Assembly: GCF_040822115.1 (NCBI RefSeq)
Contig: NZ_CP162004.1
Coordinates: 3,147,001-3,211,000, forward strand
Direction of reading: 5' to 3'
Length of the DNA: 64,000 nucleotides
Source of the DNA: Flavobacterium sp. WC2421
Lineage (GTDB): Bacteria; Bacteroidota; Bacteroidia; Flavobacteriales; Flavobacteriaceae
Positions 7,327 through 56,913 of the stretch are shown piece after piece. Numbering within the stretch: position 1 is the first letter of the stretch; every line of letters starts with the position of its first letter. Made by a program: the position numbers and the translations under genes. Under the pieces are notes generated by a model. It was given only the letters and a program-made list of their open reading frames with translations, did no database searches and was not told the DNA's origin.

Positions 7327-9561
7327 TTAATTATAAATTTTAGAGGATAATGCCATGCTGTTATTGTTGCTTTTAGGCACATTACCCATTGTAAAAATTA
7401 AAGTCCCTCCTTGCATAATTTCATTATGCGTAATATAATTTCTATTCATTTTTTCACCATTCAATTCAATAGATTGGATATAAATATTATCTTTAGAATT
7501 ATTCTTTGTCTTAATAACAAATGTTTTATTATTCTCTAAATTTAAAGTAGCGGTGTCAAACATTGGTGCACCAAAACTATAAATACTTTGTGCTGGATTT
7601 ACTGGATAAAAACCTAATGAGCTCAATATATACCAGGAAGACATTTGTCCACAATCTTCATTACCACAATGTCCATTTGGCTCGTTTTTATATTGCGTTT
7701 CTAAGATCTCTCTCACTAACTTTTGGGTTTTCCAAGGTTTATTAATATAATTATATAAATAAGCCACATGATGACTTGGTTCGTTCCCGTGCGCATATTG
7801 CCCAATCATCCCTGTGCTAAAAATGGGTAATTTGTCTTCTGGGAATGGTTTTAAAGTGAACATAGAATCTAACTTTTTTTCAAATGCATCCTTTCCACCA
7901 ACCACTTTAATTAAACCTTCAATATTTTGAGGAACAGACCAGAAATATTGCCATGCGTTACTTTCGCAGAAATAAGGAGTATAATCTTTTGGTATAAATT
8001 CTTTTAAAAACTGCCCGTTCTTAAATTTTGGACGCATAAAATTACTTTTTGAATCATAAACATTTCTCCAATTCTCTGAACGTTTTATGAAATATTTATA
8101 ATCGGTTCCTTTATTTAATGCTTTTGCAAATTGAGCCAAACACCAATCATCATATGCGTATTCCATCGTTTTTGAAACCGACCAGTTATCGCCGCTTTCA
8201 TCAGCTGGAACATATCCTAAAGTTTTATAACTATCATATTGTCTTGAATCAACCATGGAGCTTTCTTTACACGCTTTATAAGCCAACTCTACATCAAAAT
8301 TTTTAATTCCTTTAAAATAAGCATCAACAATTACTGGAATAGCGTGATTTGCAATCATCATATTGGTTTCATTTCCTTGCAAAGACCACACGGGCAATAA
8401 TCCTGTTTCTTTATAATGAGCTAATAAAGAATTGATCATACTTGACACCCTTTTTGGGTGCAAAATAGTGTACAATGGATGTGCAGCTCGGTACGTATCC
8501 CATAATGAAAAGGTATCGTACCGATCAAAAACCTGAGCATTATGAATTTTACCATCAGCACCTTTGTAATCCCCATAACAATCACTTAAAAGTGTGGGTG
8601 CTAACATGGATTGGTACATCATGCTATAAAAAACCTTCTTCTTATTTTCATCAGCGGTGGTTACCTCTATTTTTTGTAATTCTTTCTCCCACAAATTATT
8701 TGCTCGTTCTTTGTATTTTTCAAAATTAAAATCGGGTGCTTCCACTTGTAAAGACTTATAAGCTCCCTTAATAGTAGCCGTTGAAAGCCCTGTTTTTAAA
8801 ATGATTTCCTCATTATCAGTTGTCTTATAATTTAAAACAATTTTTGTTTTTACGGCTTCAGCAGGACTCGTTGTCAATGAATCATTTTTGTAAATTTGAT
8901 AGGATTCAAAAGGTTTAGAAAGTTTTATTACAAAATATGCCCTTTGGTCTTTTGCCCAACCAGTAGATTTTCTATACCCTTCAATAGTGGTATTATCGAC
9001 TACTTTTATATATGTTTTTGTGGGAGCATCCCAATTTAAAGCATACCCCAAATCGATATGAATTTGTGAAGCATTATCTTTAGGAAATGTATATTTATGA
9101 ATACCTGTTCTGGCAGTTGCAGTTAGCTCCGCTTTTATACCAAAATCCAATAAATCTACAGCGTAATAGCCTGGAAAAGCTTTTTCTTTTTCATGTGAAA
9201 AACTAGAAAAAGGCATGAAGTTATTATCTTTTATTCTATTTACAAATCTACTGTTGGTGGGCATTATTAGAATATCATACAAATCGCCGGCACCAGTACC
9301 CGTTAAATGCAGGTGTGAAAAACCGGAAATAATAGAATCTTTATAATAATAACCAGCAATTCTATCCCAACCTGGAATCCCAATATCTGGACTTAACTGT
9401 ACCATTCCATAGGGCACAGTAGCTCCAGGATAGGTATTCCCCGGACCATCTGTGCCTATAAAAGGATTTACATAATTGGTTAATTGAACATGGCCTGATT
9501 CATACCGACCGCAATTATATATTAGGGCTAGAAAAACTATATATAGTAGACCATGTTTCAT
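7327..9561 (-). CDS. GH92 alpha-mannosidase lipoprotein
   Basis: A 744-residue full-length GH92 protein. The N-terminus (hydrophobic segment ending LIYNC) is a lipoprotein signal. Family hallmarks: YVNPFIGTDGPGNTYPGA near the start, SLWDTYRAAHPL in the middle, and QYAHGNEPSHH plus CGNEDCGQMSSWY toward the C-terminus, which contribute calcium and catalytic residues in the (alpha/alpha)6 domain. GH92 enzymes are inverting exo-alpha-mannosidases. It is a clear paralogue of the GH92 gene at 14672-16921 in the same operon. Linkage specificity (alpha-1,2, 1,3, 1,4 or 1,6) cannot be read from the sequence by eye. Seven bases separate it from the upstream gene. Confidence 0.95.
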   Translation of the reverse strand: MKHGLLYIVFLALIYNCGRYESGHVQLTNYVNPFIGTDGPGNTYPGATVPYGMVQLSPDIGIPGWDRIAGYYYKDSIISGFSHLHLTGTGAGDLYDILIMPTNSRFVNRIKDNNFMPFSSFSHEKEKAFPGYYAVDLLDFGIKAELTATARTGIHKYTFPKDNASQIHIDLGYALNWDAPTKTYIKVVDNTTIEGYRKSTGWAKDQRAYFVIKLSKPFESYQIYKNDSLTTSPAEAVKTKIVLNYKTTDNEEIILKTGLSTATIKGAYKSLQVEAPDFNFEKYKERANNLWEKELQKIEVTTADENKKKVFYSMMYQSMLAPTLLSDCYGDYKGADGKIHNAQVFDRYDTFSLWDTYRAAHPLYTILHPKRVSSMINSLLAHYKETGLLPVWSLQGNETNMMIANHAIPVIVDAYFKGIKNFDVELAYKACKESSMVDSRQYDSYKTLGYVPADESGDNWSVSKTMEYAYDDWCLAQFAKALNKGTDYKYFIKRSENWRNVYDSKSNFMRPKFKNGQFLKEFIPKDYTPYFCESNAWQYFWSVPQNIEGLIKVVGGKDAFEKKLDSMFTLKPFPEDKLPIFSTGMIGQYAHGNEPSHHVAYLYNYINKPWKTQKLVREILETQYKNEPNGHCGNEDCGQMSSWYILSSLGFYPVNPAQSIYSFGAPMFDTATLNLENNKTFVIKTKNNSKDNIYIQSIELNGEKMNRNYITHNEIMQGGTLIFTMGNVPKSNNNSMALSSKIYN

Positions 9562-9568
9562 TATACTA

Positions 9569-10654
9569 TTATTTTAAACTTTCTTTAGTTTCTTTAATCG
9601 TTCTTAATTGTTCAGGAGTTATAGCGGGTCCATCATAGAAACAAACTCCTTTAGCTCCATTTTCTTTTGCTAATAAAATAGCTTCTTTCAATTCTTCTGG
9701 AGATTTAAAAGCGGGTAAATAAACACCTGTATTTATTTTAGTTTTTTTTCTTAGTAAGTCCGAAACACCTTGTTTAGTTGCATAACCAACCCAATCTACT
9801 TCTTCATTGTAAAAACCATGATAAATCATAGGATAAACCTCATCAATATCCCATTTATCCCAGCGTTGACGTACCATGTGATCAGCCATTTCTGGGTAAG
9901 GAAATACGGCAGCCGTTAAATTTTTATGGTATTTGTGAACAATTTTGTAAGCATCATCAACAACTGCTTTTATAGCATTTAGTCTGAAATTTTTCCATTC
10001 CATATCAATTGATGTGTTATGGCTTTCTTTTGGATTTTTATGATGTATTTTTTCAAAAGCTTTTATACATTCATCACAATAACAGAAATCATATTGGGGT
10101 AGCTCCTCGTCTTGCACCAAATTGTATTTGGGCAACAAACCAATTGGTAAGAAAATATCGGGGAACCGAATGTAGTCTAAATGTACACTTTCGATTCCGT
10201 CTACTTTAGCTAATTCTTCTACTAAACCTAATACGTGATTTCTAGATTCTTTTCTAGTTGGACACAACCATTGGTAATAATCTACGTATGGACGATTATC
10301 AAAACAAGACTTTCCTTCTTTACTAACAGCATACCAGTCGGGGTGCTGAAGTGCTATAGAATCACCTGGTCTGTTCATGGCCATAATCCAAGCATGCACT
10401 CTTAACCCATTTTCTTTTGCGATTGGAACTAATCGTTTCAACAATTTTGGATCGGTTCCTGTATTAATTAATACTTCATCAATTCCAGCATTTTTATACT
10501 TCGCAAATTCTTGAGCATAATCTGCATTTGTTCTCTCCTTATGTGCCGTTATCCATACCCCAAATTCAAATGGAGTTTTTTCATCTTCTTTTTTACTAGC
10601 ACATGAAATGATACTCAATGCTAAGATAAAAAGTAATAATTTAGGTAGTCTCAT
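9569..10654 (-). CDS. GHL10-type putative glycoside hydrolase lipoprotein
   Basis: A 361-residue lipoprotein of the family-10-like glycosidase group (GHL10, also called DUF187-type). The ATG at 10652-10654 is preferred over one at 10684 because it directly begins a lipoprotein signal ending LSIISCAS and leaves a 7-base gap to the preceding gene. A TIM-barrel pattern is visible: FGVWITAHKERTN, LRVHAWIMAMNRPGD, ESVHLDYIRFPD with a candidate catalytic or binding Asp, and CYCDECIKAFEKIH. No activity is established that I can name for this subgroup. Its position between a CBM9-like gene and GH92 suggests a glycan-related role, possibly an endo-acting or unusual linkage-cleaving step (inference). 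Confidence 0.8.
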   Translation of the reverse strand: MRLPKLLLFILALSIISCASKKEDEKTPFEFGVWITAHKERTNADYAQEFAKYKNAGIDEVLINTGTDPKLLKRLVPIAKENGLRVHAWIMAMNRPGDSIALQHPDWYAVSKEGKSCFDNRPYVDYYQWLCPTRKESRNHVLGLVEELAKVDGIESVHLDYIRFPDIFLPIGLLPKYNLVQDEELPQYDFCYCDECIKAFEKIHHKNPKESHNTSIDMEWKNFRLNAIKAVVDDAYKIVHKYHKNLTAAVFPYPEMADHMVRQRWDKWDIDEVYPMIYHGFYNEEVDWVGYATKQGVSDLLRKKTKINTGVYLPAFKSPEELKEAILLAKENGAKGVCFYDGPAITPEQLRTIKETKESLK

Positions 10655-48688: not shown

Positions 48689-49270
48689 TTATAAATCAAA
48701 TCCTACTGAAAATTGCCAAACACGATTGTGTGCTTTATCATTATCATACAAATCTCCTAGACCTAAATGATAACGTACTCCTAAGCTTATTCCAGAATCT
48801 GTTTTAAAACCAGCTCCAAAATTCATTCCCCAATCAAAACTGTTTGGGTCGTACTGCTGTGAACTATTGAATAACCCTTCATAAACTTCCTTGTGAGAAA
48901 CTGCCAATCCAATTTGTGGACCTGCTTCCAAAAAGAAATTTTTAGATGGATATGCTTTAAGCATAACGGGTAAATTGATATAATCTAATTTTTGAGTAAA
49001 AGTACCATTAGCATCTTTTATCTCATATCCTTGTTGAGAATACATTAATTCTGGTTGAATAGAAAAGCTTTCACTAATGAAAGATTCTCCATAAACTCCC
49101 ACATGAAAACCATGACGTTGTCCTGTTTCTCCATTACCATCATAATTGACAGCGGCTAAATTGTATCCTCCTTTTATCCCAGCATTTGATTTTGGAACTG
49201 AATGGTCTTGTGCACTCATTGTTGATAGTACACCAAAAAATAAAGCAAGTGTTAAATAGGTATTTTTCAT
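48689..49270 (-). CDS. outer-membrane beta-barrel protein (PorT/OmpA-barrel type)
   Basis: A 193-residue protein with a Sec signal (TLALFFGVLSTMSAQ) and an eight-strand barrel pattern: GIKGGYNLAAVNYDG, GFHVGVYGESFIS, QPELMYSQQGYEI, FFLEAGPQIGLAV, DWGMNFGAGFK, and a C-terminal strand ending WQFSVGFDL. This is the outer-membrane beta-barrel domain common in Bacteroidetes. It is the third gene of a minus-strand operon with a protease and a repeat lipoprotein, predicted to be controlled by the ECF sigma factor. Confidence 0.87.
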   Translation of the reverse strand: MKNTYLTLALFFGVLSTMSAQDHSVPKSNAGIKGGYNLAAVNYDGNGETGQRHGFHVGVYGESFISESFSIQPELMYSQQGYEIKDANGTFTQKLDYINLPVMLKAYPSKNFFLEAGPQIGLAVSHKEVYEGLFNSSQQYDPNSFDWGMNFGAGFKTDSGISLGVRYHLGLGDLYDNDKAHNRVWQFSVGFDL

Positions 49271-49320
49271 TTTGTTTGTTTTTTATTATTTATTTTTAAT
49301 AGTATTCAAATTTTAAGTTT

Positions 49321-50097
49321 TTACTTTCCTCCGTTTGCTTTCAGGTCGGCTAAACATTGTGCATCTAGTTTTGGTGCTGTTCCTCCCGAAACCATATTAG
49401 TAATTCCGCTTCCTGATTCGGCTGACCAATACATCAAACAACTCTCCACATTACAATGTTTTGCATGATCTAAATCTTCATGGTTGCTTTGCAGTTTTGC
49501 TCCTAAATTAGTTAGTCCTAAAATGTGACCAAACTCATGTGTCATGACCGTAGTTTCTAATAAACTTCTACTGGGCTTAAAAGGACTATCACTTAACCCT
49601 TGAATCTTTTTTTCGTAAATAACGAATGATGTATTTCTATAAGCCGTTCCCAGAACCAGTCCTGAACTGGTATTACTCGCTGATTCTCCATCTACAAAAA
49701 ATGCCCACACAGCAATTTGATTTGAAGTATTGTATTTTGTTCTGTTCCCATCTTCAATGGCTATAATTTCTTCATTGGTAAAAGTGGCTTTACCTGAGGA
49801 TGCAATTGCTCTTTTAACAATACTAATTCCCTGTGATTTATTAACTCTTTCATTAAGAAAACTGACAAAATTATTAATTGCAGCAGTCGATGGCTCATAT
49901 CCTTGAACGTATACCACTTCAACAACCATACTTTTAAAAGTATCCTCAGCCAATAAATCATAGGAAGAACTTCCTGTTGCTTTTTTATTATTGGAAACTA
50001 AATTCCCTCCAACTGTAATATCATTTGAAGCATCTTGTTTAGAACAAGACAGCGTTAAAGCAAAAATCATGGCCAAGACTGCAATTCTTTTTTTCAT
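49321..50097 (-). CDS. metzincin-like zinc metalloprotease lipoprotein with archaemetzincin-like Cys motif
   Basis: A 258-residue lipoprotein (signal ending ALTLSCSK). The zinc motif is THEFGHILGLTNLG near residue 187-191: HExxHxxGxx followed by Asn, where metzincins normally have His or Asp. About 20 residues later comes HCNVESCLMYW, which reads H-C-x4-C-x-M; the same C-x4-C-x-M occurs in archaemetzincins directly after their zinc site. The Met would be the Met-turn, and the His before the first Cys a candidate third ligand. The later CxxC of archaemetzincins is not seen. It follows the repeat lipoprotein gene and precedes the barrel gene. Such proteins have been called membrane metalloproteases in Bacteroidetes (from memory). 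Confidence 0.83.
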   Translation of the reverse strand: MKKRIAVLAMIFALTLSCSKQDASNDITVGGNLVSNNKKATGSSSYDLLAEDTFKSMVVEVVYVQGYEPSTAAINNFVSFLNERVNKSQGISIVKRAIASSGKATFTNEEIIAIEDGNRTKYNTSNQIAVWAFFVDGESASNTSSGLVLGTAYRNTSFVIYEKKIQGLSDSPFKPSRSLLETTVMTHEFGHILGLTNLGAKLQSNHEDLDHAKHCNVESCLMYWSAESGSGITNMVSGGTAPKLDAQCLADLKANGGK

Positions 50098-50124
50098 TTT
50101 TTTTCTTTTTAATTTTTTATTTCA

Positions 50125-50158
50125 AACAACAGTTCCTTAATCAAAGTGAACTGTTGTT
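50125..50158 (-). other. intercistronic hairpin before the protease gene
   Basis: Perfect 11-base arms AACAACAGTTC (50125-50135) and GAACTGTTGTT (50148-50158) in the 87-base gap between lipoprotein and protease genes. No T-run of terminator type directly after on the minus strand; could tune relative expression or protect mRNA ends. Confidence 0.6.
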
Positions 50159-50184
50159 CAAAAATGTACTAATTCAATTAGTGA

Positions 50185-51228
50185 TTATATTTGGTTTAAA
50201 ACCAATGTTACACCCGCATTTGTAGTGCTTTGCAAAGTGATTGATGACGCACTGAAGCTTGATACTTTCCAAGTGTTATTCAATAAATTGAAAGAAGCGT
50301 TCCCTGTGAAATTCAATTTCAAGAAAACATCTACTTGCGAACTCATCGCATAAGTTCCTGTTGCAGTTGTACTCAAGGTGTTTACCACTTTTATTGACAT
50401 ATCGTTTGCGAAATCAATGGTATTGTCTTTGTAGGTATTAGCTGAATCTACTCCTGCACTTACAAAAGACTGTACTTTAAAAGCACCATTCACTAATATA
50501 GTTTCCAGTTTTTTTGAATTTTGAACCGCTTCCTGCATTGTAGCTTCCGTTTTAAGTGAAGCGTTTATAGCAGCTTGAAATTCAGCATCACTAGACACAG
50601 TTGTTTTTGTTCCGTCAATTAGAGTTACTGTCATTGGATATTTTACCGAGAATAACTCTGAACTACTCATTGTAGACATATACGCATATAATTGTTGTTC
50701 GGATGTAATAACAATACTTCCTGTTTGTTCTAAACTTATGTTATAAGTTAAAATAGTAATAGGAAAAGTAATATTTACAGATGAAATAGCATCTTGACCA
50801 GAAGATTGTGCCGTTGTACATGCATTTACAATAGCATTGTATTCTGCTTGACTATTTACAGTAACTTCTGTATAGTTACTCATTTTCACTTTTAATGGAA
50901 ATTGAAGTGTAACTGAATCTTGATCATTGTTAAACTGTCCTAAAATCGATATTACTTGTGTATAATCCAATTGGCTTAAAAGAGTAACCTTTGTATCATT
51001 TACTGTTGCAGTTACAGGTAAAACAATGGAAGAACATGAAGCACCATCAATAAAATCATCAAATGAACCATCATACATCGAAGTACGTTTTAGGTTATTA
51101 GCTGTTGTTGAGTTAGCAGCATTTGTGTTTGGGTTTTGACCTTGAACATCATTAACTTCACTTTGACATGATGTAAAACCTAATATTGACATTAATGCGA
51201 TTCCTGTAATAATTCTTAACTTTTTCAT
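50185..51228 (-). CDS. secreted lipoprotein with four repeated P-x-T/K-V modules
   Basis: A 347-residue lipoprotein from ATG 51226-51228 (signal ending ILGFTSCQSE). A low-complexity Asn/Thr linker follows. Then four related units of about 45-55 residues can be seen, each with a pattern of aromatic/Leu-Pro, a hydrophobic strand, a polar turn, V-x-S-x-x-E/D and a helix: LPVTATVNDTKVTLLSQLDY, FPLKVKMSNYTEVTVNSQAE, FPITILTYNISLEQTG and YPMTVTLIDGTKTTVSSDAE. The C-terminal ~110 residues are a separate beta-rich domain. No enzyme motif is present. It is the first gene of the operon and is preceded by the ECF-type promoter at 51282-51313. Confidence 0.82.
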   Translation of the reverse strand: MKKLRIITGIALMSILGFTSCQSEVNDVQGQNPNTNAANSTTANNLKRTSMYDGSFDDFIDGASCSSIVLPVTATVNDTKVTLLSQLDYTQVISILGQFNNDQDSVTLQFPLKVKMSNYTEVTVNSQAEYNAIVNACTTAQSSGQDAISSVNITFPITILTYNISLEQTGSIVITSEQQLYAYMSTMSSSELFSVKYPMTVTLIDGTKTTVSSDAEFQAAINASLKTEATMQEAVQNSKKLETILVNGAFKVQSFVSAGVDSANTYKDNTIDFANDMSIKVVNTLSTTATGTYAMSSQVDVFLKLNFTGNASFNLLNNTWKVSSFSASSITLQSTTNAGVTLVLNQI

Positions 51229-51628
51229 AATTTTATTTTTAATGTTTTGTATCACTATTGACGTTTTTTACGCCTTTCTATTAGTAAGACAACTAACATT
51301 ATTTTTACCCTACCCAAATTTTAAAAAAAATATAAAAATTTATAATATCCCTTTATACTTCCTATTGGTTTGGAAGCAAAATTATCCAAAATATCTTTTA
51401 GAACTATTATAAAATTATCTTTAGAACTTACACAATTATTGGAGAAACCAAAAACTATATCAAATAGCGTAATGAAATATATCCCATATTTTACGGTTCT
51501 TAATACAGTTCTTTTTTTCTATTGTTTCCTACCGATTATCCATAAAACAAATTGGGAATTTAAAATCAAAACAATAGATTCAAAAAATATTTTACTTTTA
51601 CAATCTATTAAAAACGAATTTGCATGCA
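51229..51628. other. 400-base divergent control region
   Basis: Separates the repeat lipoprotein gene from the ECF sigma gene. Holds the minus-strand ECF-type promoter at 51282-51313. A plus-strand open frame at 51370-51657 lacks an ATG start, overlaps the sigma gene and has no family likeness, so it is not called. No second copy of the ECF promoter faces the sigma gene. Confidence 0.65.
51282..51313 (-). promoter_or_regulatory. ECF-sigma-type promoter of the lipoprotein operon
   Basis: Minus strand: GTAGGGTAA, ten bases, AGTTGTCTTACTA. The GGGTAA and GTCTT blocks are 14 bases apart, exactly as in the promoter before fecR (52159-52190). The -10-like block ends about 54 bases before the start codon. 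Confidence 0.75.
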
Positions 51629-52144
51629 ATGACCGACGAAAAAACGAATCTTTGTGACGAAAAGTACTTCAATCACTTTTATCTTAAAAATGTGCAATCG
51701 GCTACGAATTTTGCTTATTACAAATGTGGTGATAGCGATGCCGCTTTAGATTTGGTTCAAGATGCCTTTACCAAAATATGGGAGAATTGTTCCAAAATTG
51801 ATTTTACAAAAGTGAAAACCTATTTACTTACAACTGTAAATAATTTATTTTTAAATACTATTAAGCATAAAAAAGTGGTTCTGGCTTACGCCAAAGAATC
51901 TCCCAATCTTGATATTACGAATCAAAGTCCTGAATACCTATTAGAAGAAGAAGAATTCAAAGAGAAACTTCAAAATGCTATTGCCTCATTAACAGAAGCA
52001 CAACGTGAAGTGTTTTTAATGAATCGAATTGACGGTAAAAAATACCGCGAAATTGCAGAACTACTTGATATTTCACAAAAAGCAGTCGAAAAAAGAATGT
52101 CCAGTGCACTCAAAATATTAAAAGAGCAGATCGAAAACATATAA
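51629..52144 (+). CDS. ECF-type RNA polymerase sigma factor
   Basis: A 171-residue sigma factor from ATG 51629 (TDEKTNLCDEKYF; an upstream in-frame TTG is less likely). Region 2 contains SDAALDLVQDAFTKIWEN and TYLLTTVNNLFLN; region 4 contains LTEAQREVFLMNRIDGKKYREIAELLDIS followed by KAVEKRMSSALKIL, the helix-turn-helix that reads the -35 element. It is followed after 61 bases by fecR. The two near-identical promoters at 51282-51313 and 52159-52190 are its predicted targets. Confidence 0.94.
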   Translation: MTDEKTNLCDEKYFNHFYLKNVQSATNFAYYKCGDSDAALDLVQDAFTKIWENCSKIDFTKVKTYLLTTVNNLFLNTIKHKKVVLAYAKESPNLDITNQSPEYLLEEEEFKEKLQNAIASLTEAQREVFLMNRIDGKKYREIAELLDISQKAVEKRMSSALKILKEQIENI

Positions 52145-52158
52145 ATAATTGATTTGTA

Positions 52159-52190
52159 GTAGGGTAATTCCATAATGAGTTGTCTTACTA
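52159..52190 (+). promoter_or_regulatory. ECF-sigma-type promoter of fecR-TonB receptor genes
   Basis: GTAGGGTAA (52159-52167), ten bases, AGTTGTCTTACTA (52178-52190). Same spacing and almost same sequence as the divergent promoter. Lies in the 61-base gap between sigma and fecR, 16 bases before the fecR ATG. Confidence 0.75.
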
Positions 52191-52205
52191 TTATAGAGGT
52201 TCAAA

Positions 52206-53120
52206 ATGAAAAACGAAAAAGAAATACTAAAATGGCTCAATGGGGAACTCTCCAATCAAGAAATTGAAGATTTAAAACAATCGGAAGGATCGGACACGTT
52301 GGAAAAAATCGCTCATTATTCATCACTTTTGGAAACTCCAAAAGTAGATGCACAAAAAGCATTAGACCAATTCAAAGCCAGAGACAAATCTAAAAACGAA
52401 ACCAAAGTTCGAACACTACACTTTAAAACCATTTATAGTGTAGCTGCTGCTATCGTTGTGTTATTAACAGGCGCCTACTTCCTGTTTTATAATACTACAA
52501 CCGCATTTGAAACACAAATAGCTCAAATCAAAACGTTCCACCTTCCGGATGATTCTGAAGTATTATTGAATGCGGCTTCAAAAATAACTTTCAAGGAAAA
52601 AGAATGGGAAAACAAACGTGACTTAACCTTAGACGGAGAAGCGTATTTTCAGGTAAAAAAAGGACAAACCTTTAGCGTCAACACTGCTGATGGTGTTGTT
52701 CAAGTGCTAGGAACACATTTTAACGTAAAGCAACGCAAAAATTATTTCGAGGTGAGTTGTTTTGAAGGCTTAGTTAGTGTAACCCATAATAACGAAACCG
52801 TTAAGCTACCACCAGGAAAAACCTTTAGATTGATCAATAATAAAATTGAAGATGTACCTGATTTTAATGCCCAAAATCCTTCGTGGATGCAAAAAGAATC
52901 CAGTTTTGACCGCATTCCTCTAGATCAGGTTATAGCCGAATTAGAGCGCCAATATGATATTAAAATAAAAACCGAAGGCGTGGATACTTCTAAATTGTTT
53001 ACTGGAAGTTTCACACATACGAATCAAAAAATAGCTTTAGAAGCAATTACAATTCCGCTTAAACTAAGTTACAAGCTACAAGGGAAAACCGTTATATTTT
53101 ACAACTATGGAGTGCAATAA
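52206..53120 (+). CDS. FecR-family anti-sigma/transducer protein (DUF4974)
   Basis: A 304-residue inner-membrane protein. Cytoplasmic sigma-binding part residues 1-75, one membrane helix near 78-97 (TIYSVAAAIVVLLTGAYFLF), periplasmic FecR domain ~105-210 (FHLPDDSEVLLNAASKITF, REL-like DLTLDGEAYFQVKKG) and C-terminal DUF4974 (FDRIPLDQVIAELERQYDIK) which contacts the receptor's STN domain. Overlaps the TonB receptor gene by 14 bases. Together with the sigma factor it forms a cell-surface signalling unit. Confidence 0.95.
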   Translation: MKNEKEILKWLNGELSNQEIEDLKQSEGSDTLEKIAHYSSLLETPKVDAQKALDQFKARDKSKNETKVRTLHFKTIYSVAAAIVVLLTGAYFLFYNTTTAFETQIAQIKTFHLPDDSEVLLNAASKITFKEKEWENKRDLTLDGEAYFQVKKGQTFSVNTADGVVQVLGTHFNVKQRKNYFEVSCFEGLVSVTHNNETVKLPPGKTFRLINNKIEDVPDFNAQNPSWMQKESSFDRIPLDQVIAELERQYDIKIKTEGVDTSKLFTGSFTHTNQKIALEAITIPLKLSYKLQGKTVIFYNYGVQ

Positions 53121-55635
53121 ATGGGTCTTTTATTTTTTATTGCTCCTAGGAAGTATAAGTTATGCGCAAAAAGCGACTGATAAAATTCCGCTTACTCAAG
53201 TTATTAGTACAATCGAACAACAGTTTAATGTGAAATTTTCTTATGCTGTTGAAGATGTCGCTGGAATTACTATCGAAAAACCAGCAACTACACTTTCATT
53301 ACCACAAACAATTGATTACTTGAACGCTAAAGTGCTGTTGAACTTTAAAGCATTAGACAACCGCTATGTTACTGTTTCTGTTCTTAACAAAACAATATCG
53401 ATCGCTGGTGTGGTCCTTTCAGAAGATTCGAAAAATCCTTTAAATGGAGCAACAATAATCGCTGATAATCAAGTTGCAATTACAACCAAAAACGGGTATT
53501 TTAGTTTAAAAAATATTCCTATAACTGCTGCAGTTACTATTTCATATATCGGTTTTGAGTCTCGAGAATACAGAGCAAACGAATTATTTTCGAATCAAAC
53601 AAAACCCAAAGAAATACTTTTAAAATCCAGCAATGAAGAACTGAATCCCGTTTTAATCAATGTATATTTGACTCCGGGATTACAAAAATACTTAGACGGA
53701 AGTACCGTTTTGAACACTAAAAAATTTGGAATCTTACCGGGTTTAATTGAACCTGACGTATTGCAATCGATTCAAGCATTGCCAGGCGTAGAAAGTACGA
53801 ATGAAAGTATTGCCAACATCAATGTGCGTGGTGGCACAAATGACCAAAATCTAATGGTTTGGGACAATATAAAAATGTACCATTCGGGTCATTTCTTCGG
53901 ACTCATATCCGCCTATAATCCCAATTTGACTAATAAAGTTATTGTTACTAAAAATGGAACCAGTGCAGAATATAGTGATGGGGTTTCCAGTACCATCAAT
54001 ATGTTTACCAATGATGAAGTGAGCAATTCCTTTTCGGGCGGTGCAGGAATTAACTTAATCAATGCTGATGCTTTTTTGGCTATTCCCATAGCTAAAAACT
54101 TAGAAATTGACATCTCTGGAAGGCGTTCTGTAACGGATCTTTTTAACACGCCAACGTTTACCAACTATTACAAACGAAGTTTTCAGGATAGTGAAATTAA
54201 TGCCGACAGCCATCAGAACAATACCAATTCGGATTTTTACTTTTACGATTATACCGCTAAAATTTTATTTGATCTCAACGAAAAACACCAATTTAGAGCA
54301 AATCTTATTGGAATCAACAACGCCTTGAATTATACAGAATACAATGCTAATGACACTAATTCCGAAACCAAAGCAAGCACGCTTTCGCAAAAGAATATTG
54401 GGTTTGGGGGAAACTGGAAAGCACAATGGAATTCTAAATTCAGTTCCAATCTGATTACGTATTTTTCCAAATACAATATTGATGCTGCGGATTACAGAAT
54501 AGAAACAGCTCAACGACAAACCGAAGCCAATGAAGTATTGGAAACAGGAATTAAATTAAATACCCATTATAAAGCCAACGAATACTTTACCCTCTTGGCA
54601 GGTTATGAATTTAATGAAACGGGTATGCTCAACCAGACCACCGTAAGCGCTCCATCCTACTCTAGTACTAAGAAAGACGTACTAGATAATCACGGACTAT
54701 TTACGGAAGGAGAATACCATAAAAACAACACCTATTTCAGAATTGGCGTTCGCTTGAATTATTTTCAAAAGTTTGATAAATTACTCGTAGAACCTAGGAT
54801 AAACATCTGGCAGCAACTATCCAATCAATTTGCACTAAAACTGGAAGGGGAATTTAAAAACCAAACCGCTACTCAAATTATTGATTTTGAAGATGATTTT
54901 CTAGGTGTTGAAAAAAGACGTTGGGTATTAGTCAATAATCAAAGTATTCCTATTGCCACAAGCAAACAAGGTTCTTTTGGTGTAGAATTTAATGCCAATA
55001 AACTCAATATTGACCTGACTGGATTTTACAAAGTGGTTAATGGCATCACTGCGTCCAATCAAGGTTTTTATAATAATTTTCAATATAAAAATGCTCATGG
55101 AAGCTATACCGCAAAAGGAATTGAGTTTTTGGCTAATAAAACGGCAGGAAAATACAGCACTTGGTTAAGCTATACTTTTAGTATTAATAATTATGAATTT
55201 GATAGTTTCACACCCAATACATTTCCAAACAATGTAGACATCAGACATTCTGTTTCTCTAGGTTTCAATTATGATATTGTGAAAAATTTCAAACTCTCAG
55301 TAGGTGGAATTTGGCGAAATGGACAACCTTACACGGTACCATTAGAAGGTAATGAAACAGTGAAAAATGGTAATACAACCATGGTGAATTACGATTCTCC
55401 TAATAGTAAAAATTTGGATAATTTCATGCGTCTCGATGCCTCTTGCAGTTACCAGTTTAATCTTGCAACCGGAATCAAGGGAATCCTTCGTGCTGGAGTG
55501 ATTAATACAACCAACGAAGACAATGTAATCAACCGGTATTACAAAGTAGACCCAAATGATTCTAATAAAACGATAAAAGTGGATAACAAATCCCTTGTTA
55601 TGACTCCTAATTTGAGTTTTAGAGTGAATTTTTAA
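53107..55635 (+). CDS. TonB-dependent receptor with N-terminal STN signalling domain
   Basis: An 842-residue outer-membrane transducer. Signal peptide ends SISYAQ; STN domain residues ~27-75 (PLTQVISTIEQQFNVKFSYA); CarboxypepD_reg-like domain ~105-190 (GATIIADNQVAITTKNGYFS); plug ~200-320 (LQSIQALPGVESTNESIANINVRGG); the rest is a 22-strand barrel ending LSFRVNF. The STN domain marks it as a transducer that signals through FecR to the sigma factor. No SusD gene follows, so it is not a classic SusCD pair. Substrate unknown; siderophore, peptide or other ligand are all possible. Confidence 0.94.
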   Translation: MECNKWVFYFLLLLGSISYAQKATDKIPLTQVISTIEQQFNVKFSYAVEDVAGITIEKPATTLSLPQTIDYLNAKVLLNFKALDNRYVTVSVLNKTISIAGVVLSEDSKNPLNGATIIADNQVAITTKNGYFSLKNIPITAAVTISYIGFESREYRANELFSNQTKPKEILLKSSNEELNPVLINVYLTPGLQKYLDGSTVLNTKKFGILPGLIEPDVLQSIQALPGVESTNESIANINVRGGTNDQNLMVWDNIKMYHSGHFFGLISAYNPNLTNKVIVTKNGTSAEYSDGVSSTINMFTNDEVSNSFSGGAGINLINADAFLAIPIAKNLEIDISGRRSVTDLFNTPTFTNYYKRSFQDSEINADSHQNNTNSDFYFYDYTAKILFDLNEKHQFRANLIGINNALNYTEYNANDTNSETKASTLSQKNIGFGGNWKAQWNSKFSSNLITYFSKYNIDAADYRIETAQRQTEANEVLETGIKLNTHYKANEYFTLLAGYEFNETGMLNQTTVSAPSYSSTKKDVLDNHGLFTEGEYHKNNTYFRIGVRLNYFQKFDKLLVEPRINIWQQLSNQFALKLEGEFKNQTATQIIDFEDDFLGVEKRRWVLVNNQSIPIATSKQGSFGVEFNANKLNIDLTGFYKVVNGITASNQGFYNNFQYKNAHGSYTAKGIEFLANKTAGKYSTWLSYTFSINNYEFDSFTPNTFPNNVDIRHSVSLGFNYDIVKNFKLSVGGIWRNGQPYTVPLEGNETVKNGNTTMVNYDSPNSKNLDNFMRLDASCSYQFNLATGIKGILRAGVINTTNEDNVINRYYKVDPNDSNKTIKVDNKSLVMTPNLSFRVNF

Positions 55636-56458: not shown

Positions 56459-56913
56459 AATATATTAATAACTAAGCGCTTATATTTAGTTGCACTTGTA
56501 GCACAAACCTTAAAACCGTATTAAACGGAACCGCTCTACATCCATCCCCTATGAGTTTAAAATCAATAAGTCATAGCAATTTCAAGAAGCCATTGTGCTT
56601 CTTTTTTTTTAGTCTTTTAATTAACAATCCTTTAGTCCTATTTTTTTTATTTATAAAACTACGGATGTTAAAAAACATCTATTTAACTGTTATTTAATAC
56701 TTTAGATTTTTTAATATTTGTATTTTTAATAAAAATAAAATTGGAGTACCCTACTAAACTCTTATTTATTTAGTTATTAAATACTTTTCCAGAATAATTA
56801 CCAACTACTCCTATAAATGAAATATAATTTTATAAAAAGTGGAGACCAGAAACCATTTTAAAAACGGGGCGTTATCGAAAAGCCAAACGAGTAGAAAATA
56901 AAATTACTACAAA
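56459..56913. other. 455-base region without a gene
   Basis: No coding sequence is supported. It contains a promoter-like TATATTTAG (56481-56489), a GC-richer stretch to about 56560, and a hairpin with T-run at 56584-56612, which together could mark a small RNA of about 115 bases. The rest (56613-56913) is AT-rich with no recognised feature. Confidence 0.5.
56584..56612 (+). terminator. rho-independent terminator
   Basis: Perfect 7-base arms AAGAAGC and GCTTCTT around CATTGT, followed by a T-run. It is 125 bases after the nearest gene end. Confidence 0.75.

Follow-up and report, generated by a model that had tools for sequence, protein, structure and literature searches.

A 64,000-nucleotide stretch of the genome of Flavobacterium sp. 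WC2421 (NZ_CP162004.1, positions 3,147,001 to 3,211,000; the whole stretch is called the window below) carries a gene for an extracytoplasmic function (ECF) sigma factor, followed by genes for a FecR-type protein and a TonB-dependent receptor and facing a divergent operon for a repeat lipoprotein, a protease and a small barrel protein. The question raised by this locus is whether the one sigma factor governs both arms and, if so, for what kind of output. The comparison reported here makes it likely that the locus encodes a FecI/FecR/TonB-transducer cell-surface signalling system, the regulon of which consists of surface and envelope proteins and not of an evident uptake pathway, and the switch appears to be common to many Flavobacteriaceae. 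Much of the evidence comes from 80 loci, here called the named loci (L199-L278), which are the best 80 of 166 relatives obtained from a scan of named genomes; they lie partly in the same genomes as the loci of the family-wide scan (G handles), and the two sets are therefore not independent. The features of the cluster, in window coordinates, are as follows.

48689..49270, minus strand: small outer-membrane beta-barrel protein (OMP_b-brl_2, PF13568, E 1.1e-26), gene 3 of the divergent operon; present in 74/80 named loci
49321..50097, minus strand: predicted zinc metalloprotease lipoprotein, metzincin-like (HEFGHxxG ... HC ... CLMYW), by an invariant motif and sub-threshold profiles; present in 80/80 named loci
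50185..51228, minus strand: repeat lipoprotein, gene 1 of the divergent operon, from the likely ATG (the open reading frame list starts at GTG 51255)
51282..51313, minus strand: predicted ECF-sigma promoter of the lipoprotein operon, with -35 GTAGGGTAA, -10 TGTCTTA and a 16-base gap from GTAGGG to TGT
51593..51600, plus strand: tentative primary-sigma -7-like box TACTTTTA upstream of sigma, one mismatch to TAnnTTTG; weak
51629..52144, plus strand: ECF sigma factor, FecI-like (TIGR02985), from ATG 51629 (the open reading frame list starts at TTG 51620)
52159..52190, plus strand: predicted ECF-sigma promoter of fecR-tonB, by motif and by conservation before fecR
52206..53120, plus strand: FecR-type anti-sigma factor (PF04773, E 9e-18; PF16344, E 2e-9)
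53107..55635, plus strand: TonB-dependent outer-membrane transducer, with a weak STN-like N-terminus, CarboxypepD_reg and plug

A pair of promoter-like sequences

Two nearly identical promoter-like sequences, as described in the original prediction, were found in the window: the 32-base arrangement GTAGGGTAA-N10-AGTTGTCTTACTA occurs on the plus strand at 52159-52190 and on the minus strand at 51282-51313, and in both copies the blocks GGGTAA and GTCTT lie 14 bases apart. The pattern GGGTAA-N14-GTCTT thus has two matches in the window, compared with 0.03 expected, and none of 100 shuffled windows reached two. In the whole genome (3,833,975 bases searched) there are exactly two exact matches, both at this locus. 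Since the reversed-pattern control gives four matches over the same genome, single exact matches are at chance level, and the evidence is the co-location: two sites at one divergent locus, each of them before a gene start. When up to three mismatches were permitted, 14 matches were obtained, compared with 37 for the reversed control; therefore only the two exact sites and a third site with two mismatches, described below, were accepted.

Conservation of the locus and its motif

Homologues of the repeat lipoprotein were found in 21 of the 60 genomes searched (own genome included), all 21 belonging to the same genus, and the nearest homologues from named genomes are those of Flavobacterium. The lipoprotein gene diverges from sigma-fecR-tonB in 16 of 20 regions retrieved from relatives, down to about 25% identity, with an extra gene between lipoprotein and sigma in two of them (L039 and L041); among the remaining regions, L032 ends at a contig end, L044 has the genes co-directional and L045 holds no such cluster. 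Protease and barrel are present only in the closer relatives among these 20 regions, most of which have GTAGGG...TGT(C/T) upstream of both lipoprotein and fecR. L040 has an additional gene, for a 526-aa exported-type protein (7991-9571), separating sigma from fecR; since the motif has kept its place directly behind sigma, it would drive this extra gene.

At the level of the family, a lipoprotein homologue (E <= 0.001, partial matches included) is present in 235 of 299 genomes, with up to eight per genome, and among the 29 best family loci sigma adjoins in 25 and the protease in 27. In a set of 48 loci, composed of the window, 18 genus loci and these 29 family loci, the motif precedes fecR in 41/42 cases and the lipoprotein in 38/47, and it was not found before sigma (0/42), protease (0/35), barrel (0/30) or TonB (0/17); shuffled lipoprotein, fecR and sigma upstream regions average fewer than 0.1 matches. 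The gene order, with TonB-FecR-sigma diverging from lipoprotein-protease, is kept in 79 of the 80 named loci, the 80th being a partial contig, and two of those 79 have the barrel between lipoprotein and protease; the lipoprotein gene is divergent from sigma in 79/79. Flavobacterium glaciei and F. granuli, both non-pathogenic environmental species, are among those with the locus.

In the named loci the motif was scored in two ways. A regular expression that permitted 16-20 bases between GTAGGG and TGT matched before fecR in 74/79, before the lipoprotein in 62/79 and before a gene for a His-rich protein (see below) in 23/24, compared with sigma 0/80, TonB 0/79, protease 0/80 and barrel 1/74; at the five fecR genes that were missed, the site can still be recognised and has one or a few altered bases. 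A weight matrix trained solely on the 74 fecR sites, with the 99th percentile of shuffled upstream regions as threshold, was exceeded by 79/79 lipoprotein and 24/24 His-rich upstream regions, compared with sigma 2/80, TonB 0/79, protease 1/80 and barrel 4/74. The original claim that the sigma gene lacks the motif, and so would not activate itself, is supported in both sets. In 25 genomes selected from those that rank highest for the lipoprotein, the exact string GTAGGGTAA-N13-TGTCT has 63 matches, 57 of them at this locus by our count, and its reversed control has none. The six off-locus matches precede one His-rich gene, one paralogous fecR, three genes for small membrane-anchored proteins and one for another membrane-anchored protein. 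The three small proteins (L153:2219-2599, L155:2213-2659 and L158:2423-2872) have 126-149 aa, a hydrophobic N-terminus, about 30% identity and an exact motif before each gene, and two of the genes adjoin one that resembles yajC by eye.

The geometry of these sites bears on what kind of element they are. The view that the motif is no sigma promoter but serves as the operator of a transcription factor, or as an element of the mRNA, would agree with the observation that conservation reaches beyond the two core blocks. Against this, the spacing is 16 in 160 of 160 sites, the motif stands on the strand of its gene, and the median distance from the end of the -10 block to the start codon is 20 nt for fecR, 64 nt for the lipoprotein and 51 nt for the His-rich gene; fixed spacing, strand and distance therefore give a promoter geometry. 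Furthermore, no other regulator gene was found among the cluster open reading frames of the window, and an operator or mRNA element is considered very improbable.

How the sigma gene itself would be transcribed is a separate matter. Of the 80 named loci, 33 have an exact TAnnTTTG no more than 120 nt from sigma, compared with 11.7 in shuffled sequences; a primary-sigma box upstream of sigma is enriched in this sense, but the case for it is weak. Over the window as a whole TAnnTTTG is not enriched. The same box occurs within 120 nt before the lipoprotein start in 36 of 79 named loci (7.2 in shuffled sequences), 34 times at a distance of 10-19 nt, and is possibly a basal second promoter; the window has no such box 10-19 nt before its lipoprotein start.

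Several variations were seen around the lipoprotein gene. Two motif copies lie within 330 nt upstream of it in 15 named loci (L236, L243, L256, L258, L259, L262, L264, L265, L271 and L276 among them; the window has one), and in 13 of these 15 an ATG micro-open reading frame of 20-55 aa begins between the copies; 10 of the 13 encode a single hydrophobic helix as judged by eye. A micro-membrane protein is a possible further sigma-controlled output in other genera. L160 and L162 have the lipoprotein gene in tandem, and a motif stands before each of the two copies. Paralogues of the sigma-FecR-TonB-lipoprotein system were found in L165, L166, L167, L170 and L154; they use GTAGGG with a TGTT -10 box (TGTC in L154), and the lipoprotein of several has about 590-600 aa. 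Outside the family, by our count, 36 of 45 matching genomes match only the C-terminal ~120 residues of the lipoprotein (window residues ~228-347), for the most part in short open frames that encode roughly 140-180 aa (e.g. L179-L198), and the single near-full-length homologue is that of G371 (L176). The family-wide conservation, the likely micro-membrane-protein unit of other genera and the unlinked third target had been missed in the earlier reading.

The unlinked His-rich gene

The third site, at C1:1924368-1924396, has two mismatches and is the only further site that stands out in the genome. Some 40 bases downstream of it begins a gene for a 155-aa exported protein rich in His, Cys and Tyr, and the sequence identity at this site extends through GTTGTCTTACTA. 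Orthologues of this His-rich protein are present in 4 of 31 same-genus genomes, and all four have a site directly before the gene, with no more than one mismatch. Three other close relatives that were searched have no His-rich gene; beyond the two sites of the locus they have either no site or, in two of them, a recurring one-mismatch string within a reading frame, which is also found in two of the four orthologue-bearing genomes. This near-match recurs with one mismatch in four relatives and is present here with three; in every case it falls within a reading frame some 1,000 codons long, and it was dropped.

In other genera the His-rich gene joins the cluster: of the six full clusters listed, five have it after the barrel gene (or after the protease gene where there is no barrel) with a promoter of its own. 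The protein was found in 47 of 299 family genomes, of which the 30 best, own genome included, were examined; the strict site precedes 15 of the 17 genes that are linked to the cluster and 8 of the 13 that are not. In a post hoc division of these genomes, 21 of the 23 that encode a core-type lipoprotein (E < 1e-100) have the strict site, compared with 2 of the 7 that do not encode one. The His-rich protein has no family match at a meaningful score. Since H-x2-HC-x2-HC-x-HSD and a YYY stretch are kept in 7/7 aligned sequences, metal binding is suggested for it.

Sigma factor, proposed mechanism and known systems

The link drawn in the original prediction between the sigma factor and the two arms is supported by the family-wide motif comparison above and by the sigma tree. 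The base after TGT is C at both promoters in 60/60 named loci that have both strict sites, and among 23 more distant loci 16 have TGTT at both, one has TGTC at both, one (L173) is mixed, one (L041) has only the fecR site and four have neither. The sigma tree, built from 39 factors, places the four loci without either site in a supported clade of their own, and TGTC and TGTT mostly track sigma clades, which fits a co-evolution of the sigma factor with its promoters.

Several observations weigh against this assignment. The conservation shows a shared promoter and not which sigma factor reads it, and the agreement between clade and -10 box is imperfect, with L173 mixed and L154 outside the main TGTC clade. 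Mismatches are 1.65 within loci compared with 1.85 between loci (permutation p 0.01), a weak difference from which phylogeny was not removed. L036 has no sigma within the 19 kb fetched, the lipoprotein gene of L041, where another gene intervenes, has no motif, and the strict site is missing before 2/17 linked and 5/13 unlinked His-rich genes. In addition, the STN-like domain of the receptor is weakly supported. The receptor does have the TonB plug and CarboxypepD_reg, but the STN label given to it in the original prediction is weak: the Pfam STN model has no match on the window protein or on 13 homologues, the STN-like FecR_C model reaches E 0.011 on the window receptor and matches 7 of the 13 homologues (best E 8e-4), and hhalign to the FecR C-terminus gives a probability of 26 and E 7e-4. 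Among the 13 homologues, the plug was found in 13, a CarboxypepD_reg-like domain in 12 and the Pfam barrel model in one, and the four matches to solved structures are confined to the CarboxypepD_reg/plug part.

Alternatively, the motif could be a promoter type shared generally by many of the FecR-linked ECF factors of Bacteroidota and read here by one or more other sigma factors of the genome, with the adjacency of this one incidental. For two promoters of Bacteroides thetaiotaomicron linked to SigW-1, a TGTT near -10 is reported in a paper that calls its own motif non-significant (PMC12596196), and the paralogous systems of other genera use close variants of the motif. Such a promoter is opposed by the further two FecR loci detected in the genome, which lack the motif before fecR or the receptor gene (one similar string, in L067, lies inside a fecR gene on the opposite strand), by the fact that only three sites stand out genome-wide, all at the locus or at the third target, and by the joint loss of both sites in the four loci with the divergent sigma clade. 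A general promoter therefore keeps a small chance, and the adjacent sigma factor is the preferred reader.

The protein assignments were made by profile and structure searches. TIGR02985 scores 127.3 bits on the sigma factor (cut-off 126.4), and sigma regions 2 and 4 are both matched; a single PADLOC match, on the sigma factor, was taken as a helix-turn-helix cross-hit, and a defence-system reading was rejected. FecR adjoins sigma in the window and in 79/80 named loci, and its alignment matches the solved anti-sigma factors 4m0n (8e-30) and 4m0h (1e-29). The lipoprotein has four repeats around Pro 71, 111, 156 and 198; in profile searches it reached the cut-off of no Pfam family and matched nothing in NCBIfam, and neither its alignment nor that of the His-rich protein matches a solved structure. 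For the protease, HEFGHxxGLTN...HC...CLMYW is invariant in 14/14 aligned homologues and looks like a metzincin zinc site with its Met-turn; the metzincin-like label of the original prediction draws on this motif and on profile matches to Reprolysin, M10 and archaemetzincin that all lie below cut-off. A single weak N-terminal match to a solved structure was taken as a chance match of the signal peptide. At gathering scores Rfam has nothing within the cluster; outside it, a DUF805 RNA (RF03081, 85.4 bits) lies at 56834-56901 on the plus strand.

Net acidic residues follow the lipid cysteine in 78/79 lipoprotein and 73/80 protease homologues and resemble the export signals treated in the part of PMC5080379 available, which suggests surface display of both proteins; the C-S-K-Q-D of the window protease is an imperfect fit to the published C-X-K-(D/E)2. 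A surface location of the protease, as proposed in the original prediction, is thus plausible. The uptake proposed there as well is not supported; it would amount to the same signalling with another purpose, the lipoprotein acting as a substrate-binding lid and the protease freeing a ligand from protein, and it overlaps the signalling explanation preferred here. FecIRA systems are indeed mostly studied in iron uptake, according to the portion of PMC9249621 at hand, and the NCBIfam model TIGR04549 (LP_HExxH_w_tonB) exists for zinc metallohydrolase lipoproteins adjoining TonB receptors; however, that model scores just 12.9 bits on the protease, far under its cut-off of 75. No SusD family match was obtained among the eight proteins profile-scanned, and no SusD, inner-membrane transporter, or catabolic gene or enzyme lies behind the sites examined, and for this reason uptake, or a polysaccharide locus, is kept only as a rival, somewhat unlikely but the strongest of those considered.

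In the signalling system favoured here, an extracellular ligand would engage the TonB-dependent transducer, the periplasmic N-terminus of the transducer would signal to FecR in the inner membrane, and FecR would release the ECF sigma factor, steps inferred from the protein families and from what is established for FecIRA signalling. On comparative grounds the sigma factor would then use RTAGGGTAA and TGTCTTA, GTAGGG and TGT being 16 bases apart, and switch on three promoters, namely those of fecR-tonB, of the lipoprotein-protease-barrel operon and of the unlinked His-rich gene, and not that of the sigma gene. The promoter before fecR-tonB means that activation would raise the sensing pair, as a feedback. 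The outputs would be the repeat lipoprotein, the predicted surface metalloprotease, the small barrel and the putative metal-binding protein. The lipoprotein is the most constant partner, and our guess is that it probably acts on the cell surface together with the transducer. In a bolder and rather doubtful version, which would apply family-wide, the transducer would either detect its signal by way of its own sigma-controlled surface lipoprotein or monitor the state of that lipoprotein, and the co-induced surface protease would process the lipoprotein or its ligand. If true, proteolysis at the cell surface would close a feedback loop, and the further outputs would be a metal-binding exported protein and, in part of the genera, a micro-membrane protein.

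Among the matches listed from the open-licence PMC literature, with subscription papers and preprints outside that scope, no paper deals with this composition. The original remark that no system of exactly this composition is described agrees with that search, but the composition is widespread and no one-off, and the promoter motif itself may already be known. Bacteroidota may have very large numbers of ECF sigma factors, with 50 in B. thetaiotaomicron as given in an excerpt of PMC12596196, and the prediction of their promoters is said, in the part of PMC3878776 available, to need mapped starts. Here a sigma factor, a promoter and a regulon common to many genera could be assigned to each other by comparison alone, with predictions down to single genes, the unlinked target included. 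This would offer a handle on a common and apparently unnamed system for the display of a surface lipoprotein and protease.

The comparisons that follow refer to the excerpts available of the papers cited. With FecI-FecR-FecA of Escherichia coli the system shares an ECF sigma factor, a FecR anti-sigma factor and a TonB-dependent outer-membrane transducer (PMC9249621); fecIR is not autoregulated there, and likewise no site stands at the sigma gene here. Unlike in E. coli, fecR is a predicted target in addition to the transducer, and the other targets are surface or envelope proteins with no transporter. The PUMA3 system VreA-VreR-VreI of Pseudomonas aeruginosa also signals outside iron uptake and controls genes of surface or secreted function, but VreA lacks a beta-barrel, the regulon is unrelated and the phylum is different (PMC2729926). 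The Bacteroides ECF/anti-sigma SusC/SusD loci share the phylum, a membrane anti-sigma factor and a SusC-like receptor (PMC3878776, the available part of which leaves ECF promoters unpredicted); in contrast, the present locus has no SusD or glycan enzymes, its lipoprotein is an unclassified repeat protein, and it is not a SusCD locus. B. thetaiotaomicron SigW-1/SigH-1 and promoter motif 2 have in common with it the TGTT of the two SigW-1-linked promoters mentioned above, but no GTAGGGTAA -35 is stated in the excerpts, the targets are others and the MEME motif is non-significant (PMC12596196, PMC7366714). The SM6 promoters of Flavobacterium psychrophilum are ECF-type promoters in the same genus, with a CGT -10 box and type IX secretion genes under control as differences, and the excerpt leaves open the share of the seven ECF factors of that species (PMC9723704). 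The system would work like the FecIRA systems, having most of their testable defining features, and differs from them in its regulon.

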